Of a stretch of DNA of 64,000 bases, positions 11,462-21,342 are shown one piece after another. Origin of the DNA: Oscillospiraceae bacterium (GTDB lineage: Bacteria > Bacillota > Clostridia > Oscillospirales > CAG-272); contig SVRM01000003.1 of NCBI GenBank assembly GCA_015064785.1, forward strand, positions 1-64,000, given 5' to 3'. Each line of letters opens with the position of its first letter. Within the stretch, counting starts at the first letter, position 1. A program made the translations under genes and the position numbers. Under the pieces are notes generated by a model, which saw only the letters and a list, made by a program, of their open reading frames with translations, searched no databases and was not told the DNA's origin.

Positions 11462-11693
11462 TGGTTCTGACCCCTTCTCACTTGATATGATGTACATATA
11501 TTATATCATATTTCGTTTGCAGTATCAACCGGTTCGCATAGATTTTCAAACGGAATATCCGCCTGCATCCCCTGTGCCGCGGCAATCAGGCATCCGCTGT
11601 TCTGCGGCATTGCTTTCGTTACGAGAATCGTTTTTTCGCGGCCTCCTCTGCAGTTCGCCGCAGGAATGCCCCGGATTCTGATTGAAAAAGCAG

Positions 11694-11960
11694 CCCCATG
11701 GAAGCAATCCCGGTCTCCCCGCGATAAAATTTCAACCTGCGGTTCATATCCGGTTTCCTTTTGTTCCCTTTACAAATGCGTGATTTATGCTATAATAGAA
11801 GCAGAAGCAGACGTCGGCTTACTCTTACGAAATCGAAGCAATCACTATGGAAATGAGAATCGGAGCAAATATCAAGCGCTTGCGTACCGCAAAAAACATC
11901 ACACAGGAGCAGCTTTCCGCGGCAATGAATGTCACCTGTGCAGCGGTCAGCAAATGGGAA
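11694..11960. repeat. direct repeat copy 1 (promoter plus start of XRE gene)
   Basis: Aligned by eye to 12978-13244 with constant offset 1284, no indels, about 3 mismatches. Confidence 0.95.
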
Positions 11961-12929
11961 AGCGGCGCATCAAGTCCCGACCTGTCGCTGATCGTACCAC
12001 TCGCAAAGCTCCTGCACGTAACGACAGACGAGCTGCTCGGCATGGATGCATCGGAGGAGGACGCACGAAAACAGGAATACGAGGTGCTGTATGCGACAGC
12101 ACACCATCCCGGACAGCTGGAAATCGCCCGGCAGGCAGCGAGGGACTATCCGGGAGAGCTGAAGTATGTCAAATGGCAGGCAAACTGTCAGTATATGGAT
12201 GCGTTTGAGCATTACACGACGCAGGAAGCCTTTTACGAAGACCTGGAAAAAGCACTGAGGCTGGAGCGGGTTGTGTTTGAAAACACGGATGACGAAACAC
12301 TGAAAAACAGCGCACTTGCGGGGATTGTGATGAATCTGTCCGGTCTGCACCGGAACGACGAGGCTGTCCGATACGCAGAGCAGTATCCCGATGCGCCTGT
12401 GCTTGACAAAAAGACCGTCATGGGTTGGGCGCTGACGGGAGAGGAAAAAGAACGTCATTCCCAAAAGATTCTGATGGAACACCTGGATGGGATGCTCTGG
12501 ATTCTGATCGAAAAAGCAGACCCCCAGAACCCCAACCTCAAGCGCATGGAATCTCTCGACTGCGCCGAAGGTCTGATTCATATGCTGTTTCCGGGGGGCG
12601 AATACAACCGCTATTACGATGAGCTGTTTCTCATTTATGTTTACAAAGCGGTCATTTACGCCAACCATGCGCCGGAAAAAGCAGCGGACGCATTGAAGCA
12701 GGCACGGTCTTACGCACAGGCATTTGATGACTTATTCATGAGAGAACCTGCCGCCATCCCGTACCGTTCCCCGTTTTTCAATCTGCTCAACTACAATTCG
12801 GCAGATTTGCTCCTGTACGGTTCGCTTGAGGAAAACCGGCTCACCGACAGATTCCGGTGGTGGCTTTCCGGCGCATGCTTTGATGTGATCCGGGAGCGGG
12901 AGGATTTCAAGGCGTTTCTGGCGGAATGA
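11847..12929 (+). CDS. XRE-family HTH regulator with long variable C-terminal domain
   Basis: MRIGANIKRLRTAKNITQEQLSAAMNVTCAAVSKWESGASSPDLSLIVPLAKLLHVTTDELL. Confidence 0.88.
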   Translation: MEMRIGANIKRLRTAKNITQEQLSAAMNVTCAAVSKWESGASSPDLSLIVPLAKLLHVTTDELLGMDASEEDARKQEYEVLYATAHHPGQLEIARQAARDYPGELKYVKWQANCQYMDAFEHYTTQEAFYEDLEKALRLERVVFENTDDETLKNSALAGIVMNLSGLHRNDEAVRYAEQYPDAPVLDKKTVMGWALTGEEKERHSQKILMEHLDGMLWILIEKADPQNPNLKRMESLDCAEGLIHMLFPGGEYNRYYDELFLIYVYKAVIYANHAPEKAADALKQARSYAQAFDDLFMREPAAIPYRSPFFNLLNYNSADLLLYGSLEENRLTDRFRWWLSGACFDVIREREDFKAFLAE

Positions 12930-12977
12930 CGGCACGATACCGCAAAACGAGGCTTCATAACAGGCAATGCCAAATCC

Positions 12978-13244
12978 CCCCATGGAAGCAATCCCGGTCT
13001 CCCCGCGATAAAATTTCAACCTGCGGTTCATATCCGGTTTCCTTTTGTTCCCTTTACAAATGCGTGATTTATGCTATAATAGAAGCAGAAGCAGACGTCG
13101 GCTTACTCTTACGAAATCGGAGCAATCACTATGGAAATGAGAATCGGAGCAAATATCAAGCGCTTGCGTACCGCAAAAAACATCACGCAGGAGCAGCTTT
13201 CCGCGGCAATGAATGTCACCTGTGCGGCGGTCAGCAAATGGGAA
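12978..13244. repeat. direct repeat copy 2 (promoter plus start of XRE gene)
   Basis: Near-identical to 11694-11960. Confidence 0.95.
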
Positions 13245-14210
13245 CGCGGCGAAACATTCCCGGATATCACACTGCTGCAGCCGCTGGCTTACTATTTCGG
13301 TGTCACGCTGGATGAGCTGATGGGCTACAATGAAGAAAAAATCCAAGCAGAAATCGAGGATGTGATCGCCCTCTACCGGCAGCATTGGCTGCGTGACTAT
13401 GCCAAAGCACGCGAAATCATCGTCCAGGCGTATCACGATTACCCCAATGACTACCGCATCATGCACTATTATATGTGGAACATCGGCGGTGACATGGCAG
13501 ACAACGATCCTGCCGTTCTGATCGCACACAAGGAGGAATTCCTCTCCATCTGTTCTAAAATTCTGGACGGCTGTACCGATGAAAATCTGCGGCACAGCGC
13601 ATGGAATATGCGCGCAAAAATTCTCCACGCAGAAGGAAAAACAGACGAAGCACTGGAAATTTACAGAACCAAATTCCCCGACTGGTTCTCCACATGGGGT
13701 CAAAAGACGGAGCAGCTGTTTGCCAAGGATACCGACGAATATTACTTCCATGTGCAGAAAAATATGTATGAATTAGCAGATTTTGCGGCTGACAAATTCG
13801 GCAGAACCGTCTTTTTTGATCCGAACCGTTCCATGCAGGAAAAGACCGATCATGCCCTGCACTGCGGGAATCTGCTTCTGCACGCCTTTGAGGAAACCGG
13901 GGAAGTCTTCTTCCTGATGCTTGCAGAATCGTTCCTTGGAAGAATGGAAAACGATCTCTCCTATCGCGGCGGCACCGATGAACAGGTCACCGCGCTGATG
14001 GATCAGAATCTGTACGCAAAGCAGAAAACACAGGCATTGCGGGCAGGAAACGATGCCTTTGACCATGCCTTTGATCGCTACGGTCACGGCGCACGGGAGA
14101 ATCTGTTTCAGTTCAACCTGGATTATCGCATCCATGCTGCCGGCGGAAGACGCGCGGAGCTGCTGCACAATCCCGATTACAAAGCGGTTTTGGAGAAATA
14201 CAGAACATAA
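13131..14210 (+). CDS. XRE-family HTH regulator, mosaic paralogue of 11847-12929
   Basis: First 38 aa identical to the neighbour, then divergent (RGETFPDITLLQPLAYYFGVTLDELMGYNEEKIQAEIED). Confidence 0.88.
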   Translation: MEMRIGANIKRLRTAKNITQEQLSAAMNVTCAAVSKWERGETFPDITLLQPLAYYFGVTLDELMGYNEEKIQAEIEDVIALYRQHWLRDYAKAREIIVQAYHDYPNDYRIMHYYMWNIGGDMADNDPAVLIAHKEEFLSICSKILDGCTDENLRHSAWNMRAKILHAEGKTDEALEIYRTKFPDWFSTWGQKTEQLFAKDTDEYYFHVQKNMYELADFAADKFGRTVFFDPNRSMQEKTDHALHCGNLLLHAFEETGEVFFLMLAESFLGRMENDLSYRGGTDEQVTALMDQNLYAKQKTQALRAGNDAFDHAFDRYGHGARENLFQFNLDYRIHAAGGRRAELLHNPDYKAVLEKYRT

Positions 14211-16107: not shown

Positions 16108-16532
16108 AAAAACCGACGGAAACTGTACACTGCGCCGAGCCGCCTTGTTCGGATACAGTCGTGGTACAGACCCGTTCGATCGTTCTGTGTGTAACGTTTA
16201 CACGCAAGTCGTGCATCGTTTCACATGATGAGGTCACATCTGCCTTTGAATCGTTCTGTAAAAAACAGCGGGAAACGAACCGACCTCCAAAAACAGCATA
16301 TCGATTCTTAACTTTCCGCATGGCAATATTATAACACAGAAATTTCCACAAATCAACTATTTTCCGAATATTTTTGACTTTTTTTCAAAATATTTTTTCT
16401 TCTTCGACAGCCGACTTCGACAAAAAACAGGTTAAGAACAGAACGCGAAAAAGTTTTCAACAGCCTGTGTAAAACGCTTTACGAAAATTGCTGTAAAACG
16501 TTACCAAAAGCCGGTGTATCGTTATACTAAGA

Positions 16533-16595
16533 TCAGACAAACAGAAGCGCACGGCACTTCCGTTTTGTGGGAAGTTCTGCGTGCGCTTCGTCTGA
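16533..16595 (-). terminator. strong hairpin/terminator just after spoVM-like ORF
   Basis: TCAGACGAAGCGCACGCAGAACTTCC / GGAAGTGCCGTGCGCTTCTGTTTGTCTGA (minus strand). Confidence 0.6.
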
Positions 16596-16597
16596 TT

Positions 16598-16675
16598 TCA
16601 TACCTTTGGAATATGGAACAGCCGTCGGATCAGCGGCGTCAGCATACGGGGAGATTTCACAACAACGACCTTCAT
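16598..16675 (-). CDS. spoVM: stage V sporulation protein M (SpoVM)-like micro-ORF, 25 aa
   Basis: Hand translation MKVVVVKSPRMLTPLIRRLFHIPKV, matching the SpoVM pattern MK....K.P[KR]..L...[IL].R; SD-like AGAAAGGGTGAG upstream; hairpin downstream; thiN nearby. Confidence 0.75.
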   Translation of the reverse strand: MKVVVVKSPRMLTPLIRRLFHIPKV

Positions 16676-16785
16676 GGCAGAACTCACCCTTTCTGCGGCA
16701 GTCACTGCTGCCGTCACTTTCAGTCTATGCATCCGCCGGAAAACGTGTGTATCACCGTCACCGTCACAGCCGGATGCCGTCCGTA

Positions 16786-17265
16786 TCAGTGACCGCCGCC
16801 CGCCGTTCCGTTCTGTACCTCGCCGCCGTTTCCGGGCGCAACCGATGCCACTGCTGCAGGTGCCGGTGCATGTGCGGCATCTGCCGGTACTGCGGCACGC
16901 TGCCCTGCGTGCATCCGGTCGCCGCCCAGTCCGATCGAAACGGAAATGGCCTCATTGACCCGCTGCATCACGCTGTCGTCCAGGTGTCCCATTTTCTCCT
17001 TGAGACGCCGCTTGTCGATCGTCCGGATCTGTTCCAATAATATAACGGAATCCTTTGCCAGTCCGAACCGGTCCGCAAACACATCAATGTGTGTCGGCAG
17101 CTTCGCCTTTGTCATCTGACTGGTAATCGCCGCCGCAATCACCGTAGGACTGTATCGGTTTCCAACATCATTCTGAATAATCAGCACCGGTCTGAGTCCG
17201 CCCTGTTCGGAACCGACCACAGGACTCAGGTCGGCATAAAAAATATCACCGCGTCTGATCTGCAC
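16786..17265 (-). CDS. MazF/PemK-family endoribonuclease toxin
   Basis: [45 protein letters not shown]...LPTHIDV; GTG start with AGGAG upstream; extra Ala/Pro/Gly-rich tail. Confidence 0.93.
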
Positions 17266-17546: not shown

Positions 17547-18212
17547 TCAGAAAACATCATCCGCAAAAAGCTCGGAGAAGCTGAAAATATACCGATCACA
17601 AACCGCGCGCAGAAGCTCCGGATTGACGCAATGCGCGTCGTATACCGCGATGGTGTAAAAGCCGCCGGCCGATGCCCCGCGCACGCCGGGAACAATGTCC
17701 TCAAAGACGGCACAGTCGCAAGCCTCCCGTCCGAGCTTTTCGGCGGCACGCCAGTAAATATCAGGATTGCCCTTGCCGCGCGACACCTCGGAAATCTCCG
17801 TAATCGACGAAAACCAGTCTGCGATCCCGAGTCTCCGCAGAGCCGGCAGATAGAATACCGCCTGCGATGCGGTTGCCGCGGCAAACGGAATGCCGCGCCG
17901 GCGCAGAGAGGTCAGATAGTCCCGAACACCGTGCTTCAGCCCGACATGATTGGCATACGCATCCACGGCAAGCGCGTGCCATTCCGCCATGATGGATGCC
18001 TCATCCTCGGGAAGCGAGAACCGCGTTTTCGTATACGCCGCGGCAGCCGGAAATCCCATCGGCGAGATCGCGGCGGCATAATCGTCCGGAAGCGCAATCC
18101 CGCGCCGCGCAAGAAAGACCCGGTCCACCTCCAGCCAAACGCCCATGGAATCGAGCAGCGTCCCGTCCAAATCAAAAATTGCGGCTTTCTTTTTTGTAAG
18201 CAAGGTACTCAT
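17547..18212 (-). CDS. HAD-family hydrolase (beta-phosphoglucomutase-like)
   Basis: AAIFDLDGTLLDSMGVWLEVD; KGNPDIYWRAAEKLG; FEDIVPGVRGASAGGF. Confidence 0.9.
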   Translation of the reverse strand: MSTLLTKKKAAIFDLDGTLLDSMGVWLEVDRVFLARRGIALPDDYAAAISPMGFPAAAAYTKTRFSLPEDEASIMAEWHALAVDAYANHVGLKHGVRDYLTSLRRRGIPFAAATASQAVFYLPALRRLGIADWFSSITEISEVSRGKGNPDIYWRAAEKLGREACDCAVFEDIVPGVRGASAGGFYTIAVYDAHCVNPELLRAVCDRYIFSFSELFADDVF

Positions 18213-18889
18213 AACGGCTTCACCACCAGCAAAAGTCCGTCCCGTACTGTCACACGCGCCGTCTCTCCGGGCAGAAATTCATTGGATATGCCCAGCGCCA
18301 CGTGCGGCTGCAGCGTCTGCTCACAAAGCGGATACTTCAGATGCTCCAGCGTCACACCGTGGGCATCCCCACCCCAGGCTGCAAGCGACAGATAGCCCCG
18401 CGCACGGTCGGAAAAGGTCAGAGTGCCATCCTTCACGGCAGTGATGTATGACGCACACCGACCGTCCTGTGTCTGCTCAAAGGCATAGCCCGCCGCACCG
18501 GCTTCCGCCAGAAACGCCACCGTCTGTAAGGTACCGACCGTGTGGTCAAATCTGCCGCCGAACATACCGAACAGCAGGAATTTCCGATAGCCGAGCGAAA
18601 GTCCGTGCCGGACAGCCAGCATGGTATCCGTGTCATCCTTGATCGGGTTATAGCGCCTGGTTTCCGTGCCGATCACCGTATCCGGCGGCAGAGAATCCAG
18701 ATCGCCCATCAAAAGGTCACAGCGCACACCGGCCGCCTGTAAATAGCGGTATCCGCCGTCTGCCGCAATGACCAGATCATCCCCGCCCGGTGCGATCTCA
18801 TAGTCACCCAGATCCCCCGCCCCGACGATAATGCAGACAGGCGCATCATCAAAAAAAGCCGTTGGAAGCGCATCATAAAACCGATTCAT
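18209..18889 (-). CDS. thiN: thiamine diphosphokinase
   Basis: IAADGGYRYL, LLMGDLDSLPP, KDDTDTMLAVRHGLSLG, GGRFDHTVGTLQ motifs. Confidence 0.93.
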   Translation of the reverse strand: MNRFYDALPTAFFDDAPVCIIVGAGDLGDYEIAPGGDDLVIAADGGYRYLQAAGVRCDLLMGDLDSLPPDTVIGTETRRYNPIKDDTDTMLAVRHGLSLGYRKFLLFGMFGGRFDHTVGTLQTVAFLAEAGAAGYAFEQTQDGRCASYITAVKDGTLTFSDRARGYLSLAAWGGDAHGVTLEHLKYPLCEQTLQPHVALGISNEFLPGETARVTVRDGLLLVVKPL

Positions 18890-19885: not shown

Positions 19886-20797
19886 ATGACAACCACTCCC
19901 GCATCCGCATCTCCGCCGAGAAAGCTCGCATTGCTCGGCGGAGATCTGCGCCAGATGATTACTGCACGGTCGCTTGCGGCAGAAGGCTACGAGGTCGCCG
20001 TGTACGCCATGGATACTTACGCCGGAGAATGGGGCAGTGTCACGCGCGCATCCGATTTGCAGTCCGCGGTCGGCGGTGCAGATCTGATCGTACTGCCGCT
20101 TCCCGTCACGCAGGACGACGAGCGTCTGCATTGTCCGCTGACACGCCATACCGTTCTGCTACGCGATGTCTTTGATGCGCTGACACCGGGACAGCGCGTG
20201 GTCGGCGGCAAGGTCGGCGCACACGTCCGATCACTTGCCGAGGCACGCGGCATCACCATCACCGACTACCTCCAGCGCGAGGAGCTTGCTGTCGCCAATG
20301 CCGTACCGACGGCGGAAGGCGCACTTGCAATTGCCATGGCGGAGGTTCCCTACACCATCCACGGCGCGCGCTGTCTGATTCTCGGCTACGGACGTGTCGC
20401 AAAAGCACTGGCCAAAACACTGTCTGCCGTCGGTGCCGTCGTCACCGTTGCCGCACGGAAACCGCAGGATCTTGCATGGATCGATGCCAACGGACAGATT
20501 CCGATGTCCTTTTCCGCACTGACCGGCGGCGATGCTCCGCTTGCTTTTGACATTGTATTCAATACCGTACCCGAGCAGATTATCGGTGCCGATCTTCTTT
20601 CGCGTCTGCCGGACGATGTCCTGCTGCTCGACCTTGCCTCCGCGCCGGGCGGATTTGACCACGACTGGGCGAAATCCCACGGATACCATGTTGTCTGGGC
20701 GCTGTCTCTGCCCGGCAAAACGGCCCCTGTCACTGCCGGACGCATCATCGGCGAAACCATCCGGCAGATGCTGAACGAAGAAAGAGGGAACCCATGA
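19886..20797 (+). CDS. dpaA: dipicolinate synthase subunit A
   Basis: LALLGGDLRQMITARSLAAEGYEVAVYAMD; GYGRVAKALAKTL; PGGFDHDWAKSHGYHVVWALSLPGKTAP; start inferred within ORF 19802-20797. Confidence 0.93.
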   Translation: MTTTPASASPPRKLALLGGDLRQMITARSLAAEGYEVAVYAMDTYAGEWGSVTRASDLQSAVGGADLIVLPLPVTQDDERLHCPLTRHTVLLRDVFDALTPGQRVVGGKVGAHVRSLAEARGITITDYLQREELAVANAVPTAEGALAIAMAEVPYTIHGARCLILGYGRVAKALAKTLSAVGAVVTVAARKPQDLAWIDANGQIPMSFSALTGGDAPLAFDIVFNTVPEQIIGADLLSRLPDDVLLLDLASAPGGFDHDWAKSHGYHVVWALSLPGKTAPVTAGRIIGETIRQMLNEERGNP

Positions 20798-21342
20798 TCG
20801 GTTATGCACTCTGCGGTTCCTTCTGCACACATGCACGTGCGGTCGATACCCTGCGGGTTCTGCGCGCACGCGGTCATGACATTCTGCCGATTGTCTCGGA
20901 AATCGTCTATGATACTGACACCCGGTTCGGGCGGGCAGAGGATCTGATCCGTGAGCTGGAGAGCATCTGCGGCAGGAAAACCGTTCATACCATCGTTGCC
21001 GCCGAGCCGCTCGGACCCAAAACACCGCTCGATCTGCTCATCATCGCGCCATGTACTGGCAACACCCTCGCCAAGATGGCAAACGGCATCACCGACACCG
21101 CTGTTACAATGGCGGCAAAGGCACAGCTGCGTGCCGATCGTCCCGTCCTGCTGGGACTCGCCTCCAACGATGCGCTGTCTGCCAATCTTCAGAACATCGC
21201 CGCGCTCCATACCCGCCGTCACATCACCTTTGCCCCGATGGCAATGGATGACAAAATCGGGAAACCGTATTCGCTTGTCTGTGATTTTTCCGTCATTCCC
21301 GACCTTACGGAATCGATTCTGCACGCACGCGGCATCGGCTGA
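20794..21342 (+). CDS. dpaB: dipicolinate synthase subunit B
   Basis: GYALCGSFCTHARAVDTLRVLRARGHDILPIVSEIVYDTDTRFG; CTGNTLAKMANGITDTAVTMAAKAQLRADRPVLLGLASNDALS; overlaps dpaA by 4 nt. Confidence 0.95.
   Translation: MIGYALCGSFCTHARAVDTLRVLRARGHDILPIVSEIVYDTDTRFGRAEDLIRELESICGRKTVHTIVAAEPLGPKTPLDLLIIAPCTGNTLAKMANGITDTAVTMAAKAQLRADRPVLLGLASNDALSANLQNIAALHTRRHITFAPMAMDDKIGKPYSLVCDFSVIPDLTESILHARGIG

Follow-up and report, generated by a model that had tools for sequence, protein, structure and literature searches.

A divergent spoVM gene of 25 codons in a gut Clostridia lineage and its sigmaK-type promoter-like sequence

The spoVM micro-ORF and its neighborhood

The window, i.e. the whole analyzed stretch of 64,000 nucleotides from an Oscillospiraceae bacterium, contains on its minus strand a short open reading frame at positions 16598-16675. 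Its translation is MKVVVVKSPRMLTPLIRRLFHIPKV followed by a stop codon, which agrees with the 25-codon ORF read there in a preliminary description of the sequence. The SD-like sequence upstream and the strong hairpin directly after the stop reported in that description were located as well. The following features of the locus were assigned:

16532..16596, minus strand: hairpin 3′ of the spoVM stop with a U-rich stretch after the inner stem, terminator-like (folding)
16598..16675, minus strand: spoVM, 25 codons plus stop (translation; SpoVM_broad match; genus dN/dS)
16687..16693, minus strand: GAAAGGG, ribosome-binding sequence, 11-12 nt 5′ of the ATG (sequence)
16722..16729, minus strand: CATAGACT, −10 element of the sigmaE/sigmaK kind, CATA 54 nt 5′ of the ATG (motif scans, held-out test)
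16747..16748, minus strand: AC core, sigmaK-type −35 element, 17 nt before CATA (motif scans, held-out test)
16786..17265, minus strand: ndoA/mazF-type ribonuclease gene, context outside the SpoVM system (PF02452, E 5.1e-36)
17547..18212, minus strand: HAD-family phosphatase gene, context (PF00702, E 2.6e-21)
18209..18889, minus strand: thiN, thiamine diphosphokinase, ancestral neighbor of spoVM (TIGR01378, E 2.7e-33)

The spacing between GAAAGGG and the ATG is slightly long. Sequences of the AAAGG/GGAGG kind recur 5′ of nearly all spoVM homologues. The folding energy of the hairpin was −33.4 kcal/mol compared to −15.2 ± 2.8 kcal/mol for shuffled sequences (z −6.5), and none of 200 shuffles was as stable. 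The promoter-like sequence spans positions 16722-16748.

The peptide begins with MK and carries K2, V6, Lys7, Pro9, a basic residue at position 10, L15 and R17. Its amphipathic helix has a hydrophobic moment of 0.72, which is reached by 2% of the shuffled peptides, and the charge is +6. It resembles SpoVM of B. subtilis (26 aa; PDB 2mvh; NF033436, PF08183) in length, the MK start, Lys7, Pro9, the basic residue 10, Arg17 and the cationic amphipathic helix. The B. subtilis sequence given in the preliminary description matches PDB 2mvh letter for letter. In contrast to the B. subtilis protein, the window peptide has Pro14 instead of Gly and Val6 instead of Ile, its N-terminus is valine-rich (VVVV), and RRLF replaces RAML.

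The reported proximity of thiN holds for distance and strand, the end of the gene lying about 1.5 kb upstream of spoVM in the same orientation, but the two are not adjacent. In the window's genus thiN is mostly kept, and the genes for the HAD phosphatase and the ndoA/mazF-type ribonuclease intervene before spoVM, which is different from B. subtilis. The position of the ribonuclease gene between thiN and spoVM is conserved within the genus. In the sister lineages the order thiN-spoVM, which had been suggested as a point to check, is the usual arrangement, and there spoVM follows thiN as in B. subtilis, closing the block rsmB-rlmN-prpC-prkC-rsgA-thiN. All six genes of this block (prpC encoding a PP2C phosphatase) could be identified with Pfam in genome G057, and thiN was found immediately 5′ of spoVM in G024, G027, G031, G039 and G057. 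The genes sipL and spoIVA come next after spoVM in G057 and G047, while sipL is next in G048, G049 and G053. A distance of 3.5 kb or less from spoIVA was observed for 14 SpoVM matches in the relatives and the class sample, with about 0.5 expected within 5 kb; since these matches include closely related genomes, the count overstates their independence. The nearness of thiN does not imply shared transcription, because spoVM is preceded by a promoter-like sequence and followed by a terminator-like hairpin of its own.

The neighborhood also bears on whether the peptide belongs to the adjoining mazF-type ribonuclease, as an antitoxin-like or leader peptide with a likeness to SpoVM that arose by chance. 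Within the genus spoVM is located 110 bases downstream of the ribonuclease gene, which speaks for such a partnership. In other genera, however, the ribonuclease is missing where the peptide lies next to thiN, sipL or spoIVA, and none of 80 ndoA loci in named genomes of other genera has such a peptide in the flanks examined. Because the pairing is confined to the window's genus, this explanation was rejected and is regarded as very improbable.

Past its conserved domain, the ribonuclease (16786-17265, minus strand) extends into a C-terminal tail of about 45 residues rich in Ala, Pro and Gly; an adjacent antitoxin gene was not noticed. Elsewhere in the window, the region 11666-14210 on the plus strand contains tandem HTH regulator genes (11847-12929 and 13131-14210). 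Their N-terminal 40 residues are near-identical and their C-terminal parts differ; the stretches preceding the two genes look duplicated too.

Assignment to the SpoVM family and occurrence in Clostridia

The model search proposed in the preliminary description gave a match below the cut-off with one of two models. NCBIfam SpoVM_broad (NF033436) matched residues 1-24 of the window peptide with an E-value of 1.5e-6, although the score of 28.0 bits is 3 bits below the curated cut-off of 31 bits, whereas Pfam (PF08183) gave no match to the peptide. In the whole 3.58 Mb genome, which is about 86% complete, the window peptide is the best SpoVM_broad match (genome-wide E 8.6e-5), and the next match, with an E-value of 0.76, is at chance level. 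A PF08183 search of the same genome resulted elsewhere only in weak partial matches at chance level (E 0.23 and worse). The window peptide is thus the only plausible SpoVM in this genome at its completeness of about 86%.

A clade profile (A1) was built from 40 peptides, among them the window peptide, which as one of the 40 rows matches the profile with an E-value of 2.0e-12. A1 aligned to B. subtilis SpoVM over residues 1-22 with an hhalign probability of 90.7. Among 177,635 PDB sequences SpoVM was the best A1 match, but a weak one (E 0.84). When 59 genomes (the own genome and relatives) were searched with SpoVM_broad, matching short ORFs were found in most of them. The consensus among the peptides of the relatives is MK[IV]VVV[KR]SP[KR]xLxPxLRRxFxI, with ribosome-binding sequences 5′ of the ORFs.

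With 25 codons and a model score below the cut-off, the ORF could in principle have arisen by chance. The genome-wide E-value of 8.6e-5 speaks against this, as do the conserved ribosome-binding sequence, the conserved gene context and the pattern of substitutions. Among eight members of the genus, 155, 76 and 326 differences were counted at codon positions 1, 2 and 3, respectively. The mean pN/pS was 0.25, and pN was smaller than pS in all 28 pairs, which are not independent of each other. For the 18 pairs with a computable dS, dN/dS averaged about 0.17. As judged from these comparisons, the pattern is that of a translated, constrained peptide under purifying selection. Conservation and codon-position bias rule out a chance ORF, which is considered extremely improbable.

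The family match, conservation, synteny and co-occurrence with SpoIVA support the identification made in the preliminary description. Homologues were plentiful, Pro9 was conserved and a single SpoVM was found in the genome, the reverse of the three results named there as speaking against it. The micro-ORF at 16598-16675 is therefore assigned as the spoVM gene of a gut Clostridia lineage, encoding the SpoVM peptide of endospore-forming bacteria, with a probability of about 0.95. The gene adds a new and divergent member to a known family, and its short length together with the model cut-offs explains why it was overlooked by annotation.

The distribution of SpoVM was analyzed in a class sample of 243 Clostridia genomes, all of which except the window's own are at least 90% complete. 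With A1 at an E-value of 1e-3, SpoVM was detected in 101 genomes, and 98 of these also have SpoIVA; in 84 genomes SpoIVA was present and SpoVM was not detected, and in 58 neither was found. The odds ratio of this co-occurrence is about 23 (Fisher p about 5e-13, a value that ignores phylogeny). In the nearer sample of 59 genomes, 42 have both, 6 SpoVM only, 5 SpoIVA only and 6 neither, some of the absences stemming from incomplete genomes.

Only 8 of the 243 Clostridia genomes reach the NCBIfam cut-off of 31 bits, compared to 84 with a match to the same model at an E-value of 0.01 or better. The SpoVM_broad cut-off is therefore a poor test in Clostridia, and annotation pipelines under-call clostridial SpoVM. 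A1 matches at an E-value of 0.01 were found in 116 of the 243 genomes; a few of those between 1e-4 and 1e-2 are partial matches inside longer frames, and some are due to chance. Compared with this number, most SpoVM of Clostridia escapes detection at the curated cut-off. In a survey of sporulation genes from 2012, SpoVM was not found in several clostridia, and the question of distant versions was raised (PMC3533761). No publications dealing with SpoVM in Ruminococcaceae turned up in a literature search.

The own genome encodes SpoIVA, SipL, SigE, SigK and DpaAB. The dpaAB genes mentioned in the preliminary description were confirmed in the window (dpaA 19802-20797; dpaB 20794-21342). At G000:C77:6439-7955 (L223, L227), sigK immediately precedes sipL in the same orientation and reads through without an interrupting element.

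The promoter-like sequence of spoVM

A first scan with the full sigmaE consensus gave a marginal signal upstream of spoVM; the −10 element alone then revealed the pattern and a sigmaK-type −35 element. The −10 element common to sigmaE and sigmaK (CATANNNT) was found 5′ of spoVM in 20 of 23 family genomes, compared to 2.7 in shuffles. The −35 element is ATA for sigmaE and AC for sigmaK in C. difficile (PMC3789822), and the residue contacting it is Gln in sigmaE and Arg in sigmaK (PMC517825). SigE of the own genome reads SQSYISR, with Gln at the −35 contact, and SigK reads SRSYVSR, with Arg.

The sigmaK-type rule was defined as AC-N16/17-CATANNN[TA] within 180 nt upstream. It applies to spoVM in 7 of 8 genomes of the genus and in 15 of 23 of the family (shuffles: 0.25 and 0.9, respectively), whereas the sigmaE-type rule applies in none of the 23. 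For spoIVA of the same family, the result was 0 of 20 for the sigmaK type and 11 of 20 for the sigmaE type; in the window's genus, spoIVA has the −10 element and a divergent −35 element. The sigmaK-type rule was chosen after inspection of the first 23 genomes and then fixed for 59 new family genomes, in which 30 spoVM loci were of the sigmaK type (1.8 expected) and 4 of the sigmaE type (1.4 expected). In these held-out genomes the gap between AC and CATA peaks at 16 and 17. Among 30 spoVM loci across the class, the sigmaK-type motif was present in 3, one of which is that of the window. Taken alone, the motif in the window is not significant. A −10 element of the mother-cell type (CATA) and a −35 element of the sigmaK type are present and conserved at spoVM.

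The spoVM genes of B. subtilis and C. difficile belong to the sigmaE regulon (PMC517825, PMC5607322), and the promoter sequence of the window spoVM differs from the B. subtilis one in being sigmaK-type instead of sigmaE-type. This suggests a SpoVM with shifted timing, which would be transcribed late by sigmaK when SpoIVA assembly has already begun, and would stabilize or complete the coat or cortex instead of initiating the coat. The recurrence of AC-N16/17-CATA in genus, family and held-out genomes with its gap peak, the different result for spoIVA of the same family, and the Arg and Gln residues in the genome's own SigK and SigE are all consistent with late transcription. On the other hand, promoter sequences of sigmaE and sigmaK overlap, and both factors recognize some of them (PMC517825). 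The strict motif is also absent from about half of the family genomes, and dpaA, the hoped-for positive control for a sigmaK promoter, has no such motif. Late synthesis is a real possibility, and SpoVM of this family may be made late in sporulation; as an account of the promoter data we place it slightly short of an even chance. It concerns the same protein family as the assignment to SpoVM, and the two are not mutually exclusive.

Proline variants and the proposed role of SpoVM

A published alignment of SpoVM shows full conservation for Pro9 alone (PMC5607322), and this residue is required for curvature-specific localization (PMC5607322, PMC4307972). Its conservation at orthologous loci, on which the preliminary description had made the identification depend, was observed in 58 of 59 held-out family genomes. 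Pro14 was found in 56 of 59, a count biased upward somewhat since these members were detected with a profile already carrying Pro14. In the same genomes K2 was identified in 57, a hydrophobic residue 6 in all 59 and R or K at residue 17 in 56. SpoVM peptides from outside the family mostly share Gly14 with B. subtilis, and among the loci sampled across the class the window peptide alone has Pro14. A specialist would expect neither the family-wide sigmaK-type promoter nor Pro14.

Some other clades have Ser9 instead of Pro9, e.g. MKVVVVKGSKFWGFVLRKMFHIKKEQ in G057, encoded directly before sipL and spoIVA. The Ser9 clades depart from the published full conservation of Pro9 (PMC5607322). Peptides of this kind (KGSKFW or KASKFW), which are SpoVM in other respects, are L152 (G057; start 7561, minus strand), L178, L179, L189 and L199.

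By homology to known SpoVM, the mother cell would produce the peptide during sporulation, and its cationic amphipathic helix, from about residue 11, would insert in the convex outer membrane of the forespore. Pro9 would break the helix and be needed for curvature-specific binding, while the N-terminal stretch around residue 6 would contact SpoIVA. In this way SpoVM would hold the basement layer of the coat, consisting of SpoIVA and SipL, on the spore surface. Translation, membrane binding, SpoIVA contact and a need for the window SpoVM in sporulation are all predicted by homology.

The C. difficile SpoVM is similar to that of the window in being clostridial, in keeping Pro9 and in sharing its genome with SpoIVA and SipL. 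It differs in that its gene lies close to rpmB, is cotranscribed with CD25622 and is controlled by sigmaE (PMC5607322). The C. difficile protein binds SpoIVA, yet is largely dispensable (PMC5607322), and for this reason the importance of the window SpoVM for sporulation cannot be assumed. A late-acting SpoVM fits the encasement of the forespore by SpoIVA without SpoVM in C. difficile.

We tentatively propose that SpoVM of this family was transferred from the early mother-cell program under sigmaE to the late one under sigmaK and gained Pro14 as a second proline at the start of its helix, acting once encasement by SpoIVA and SipL is under way; this combined proposal is put at somewhat less than an even chance. 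If true, curvature sensing would be uncoupled from the start of coat assembly. With the present family, one lineage of the distant clostridial SpoVM versions and a usable profile are now supplied. The family bears on whether SpoVM must act before SpoIVA, and its proline pattern (Pro9 and Pro14, with Ser9 elsewhere) offers natural variants for relating proline positions to curvature sensing.
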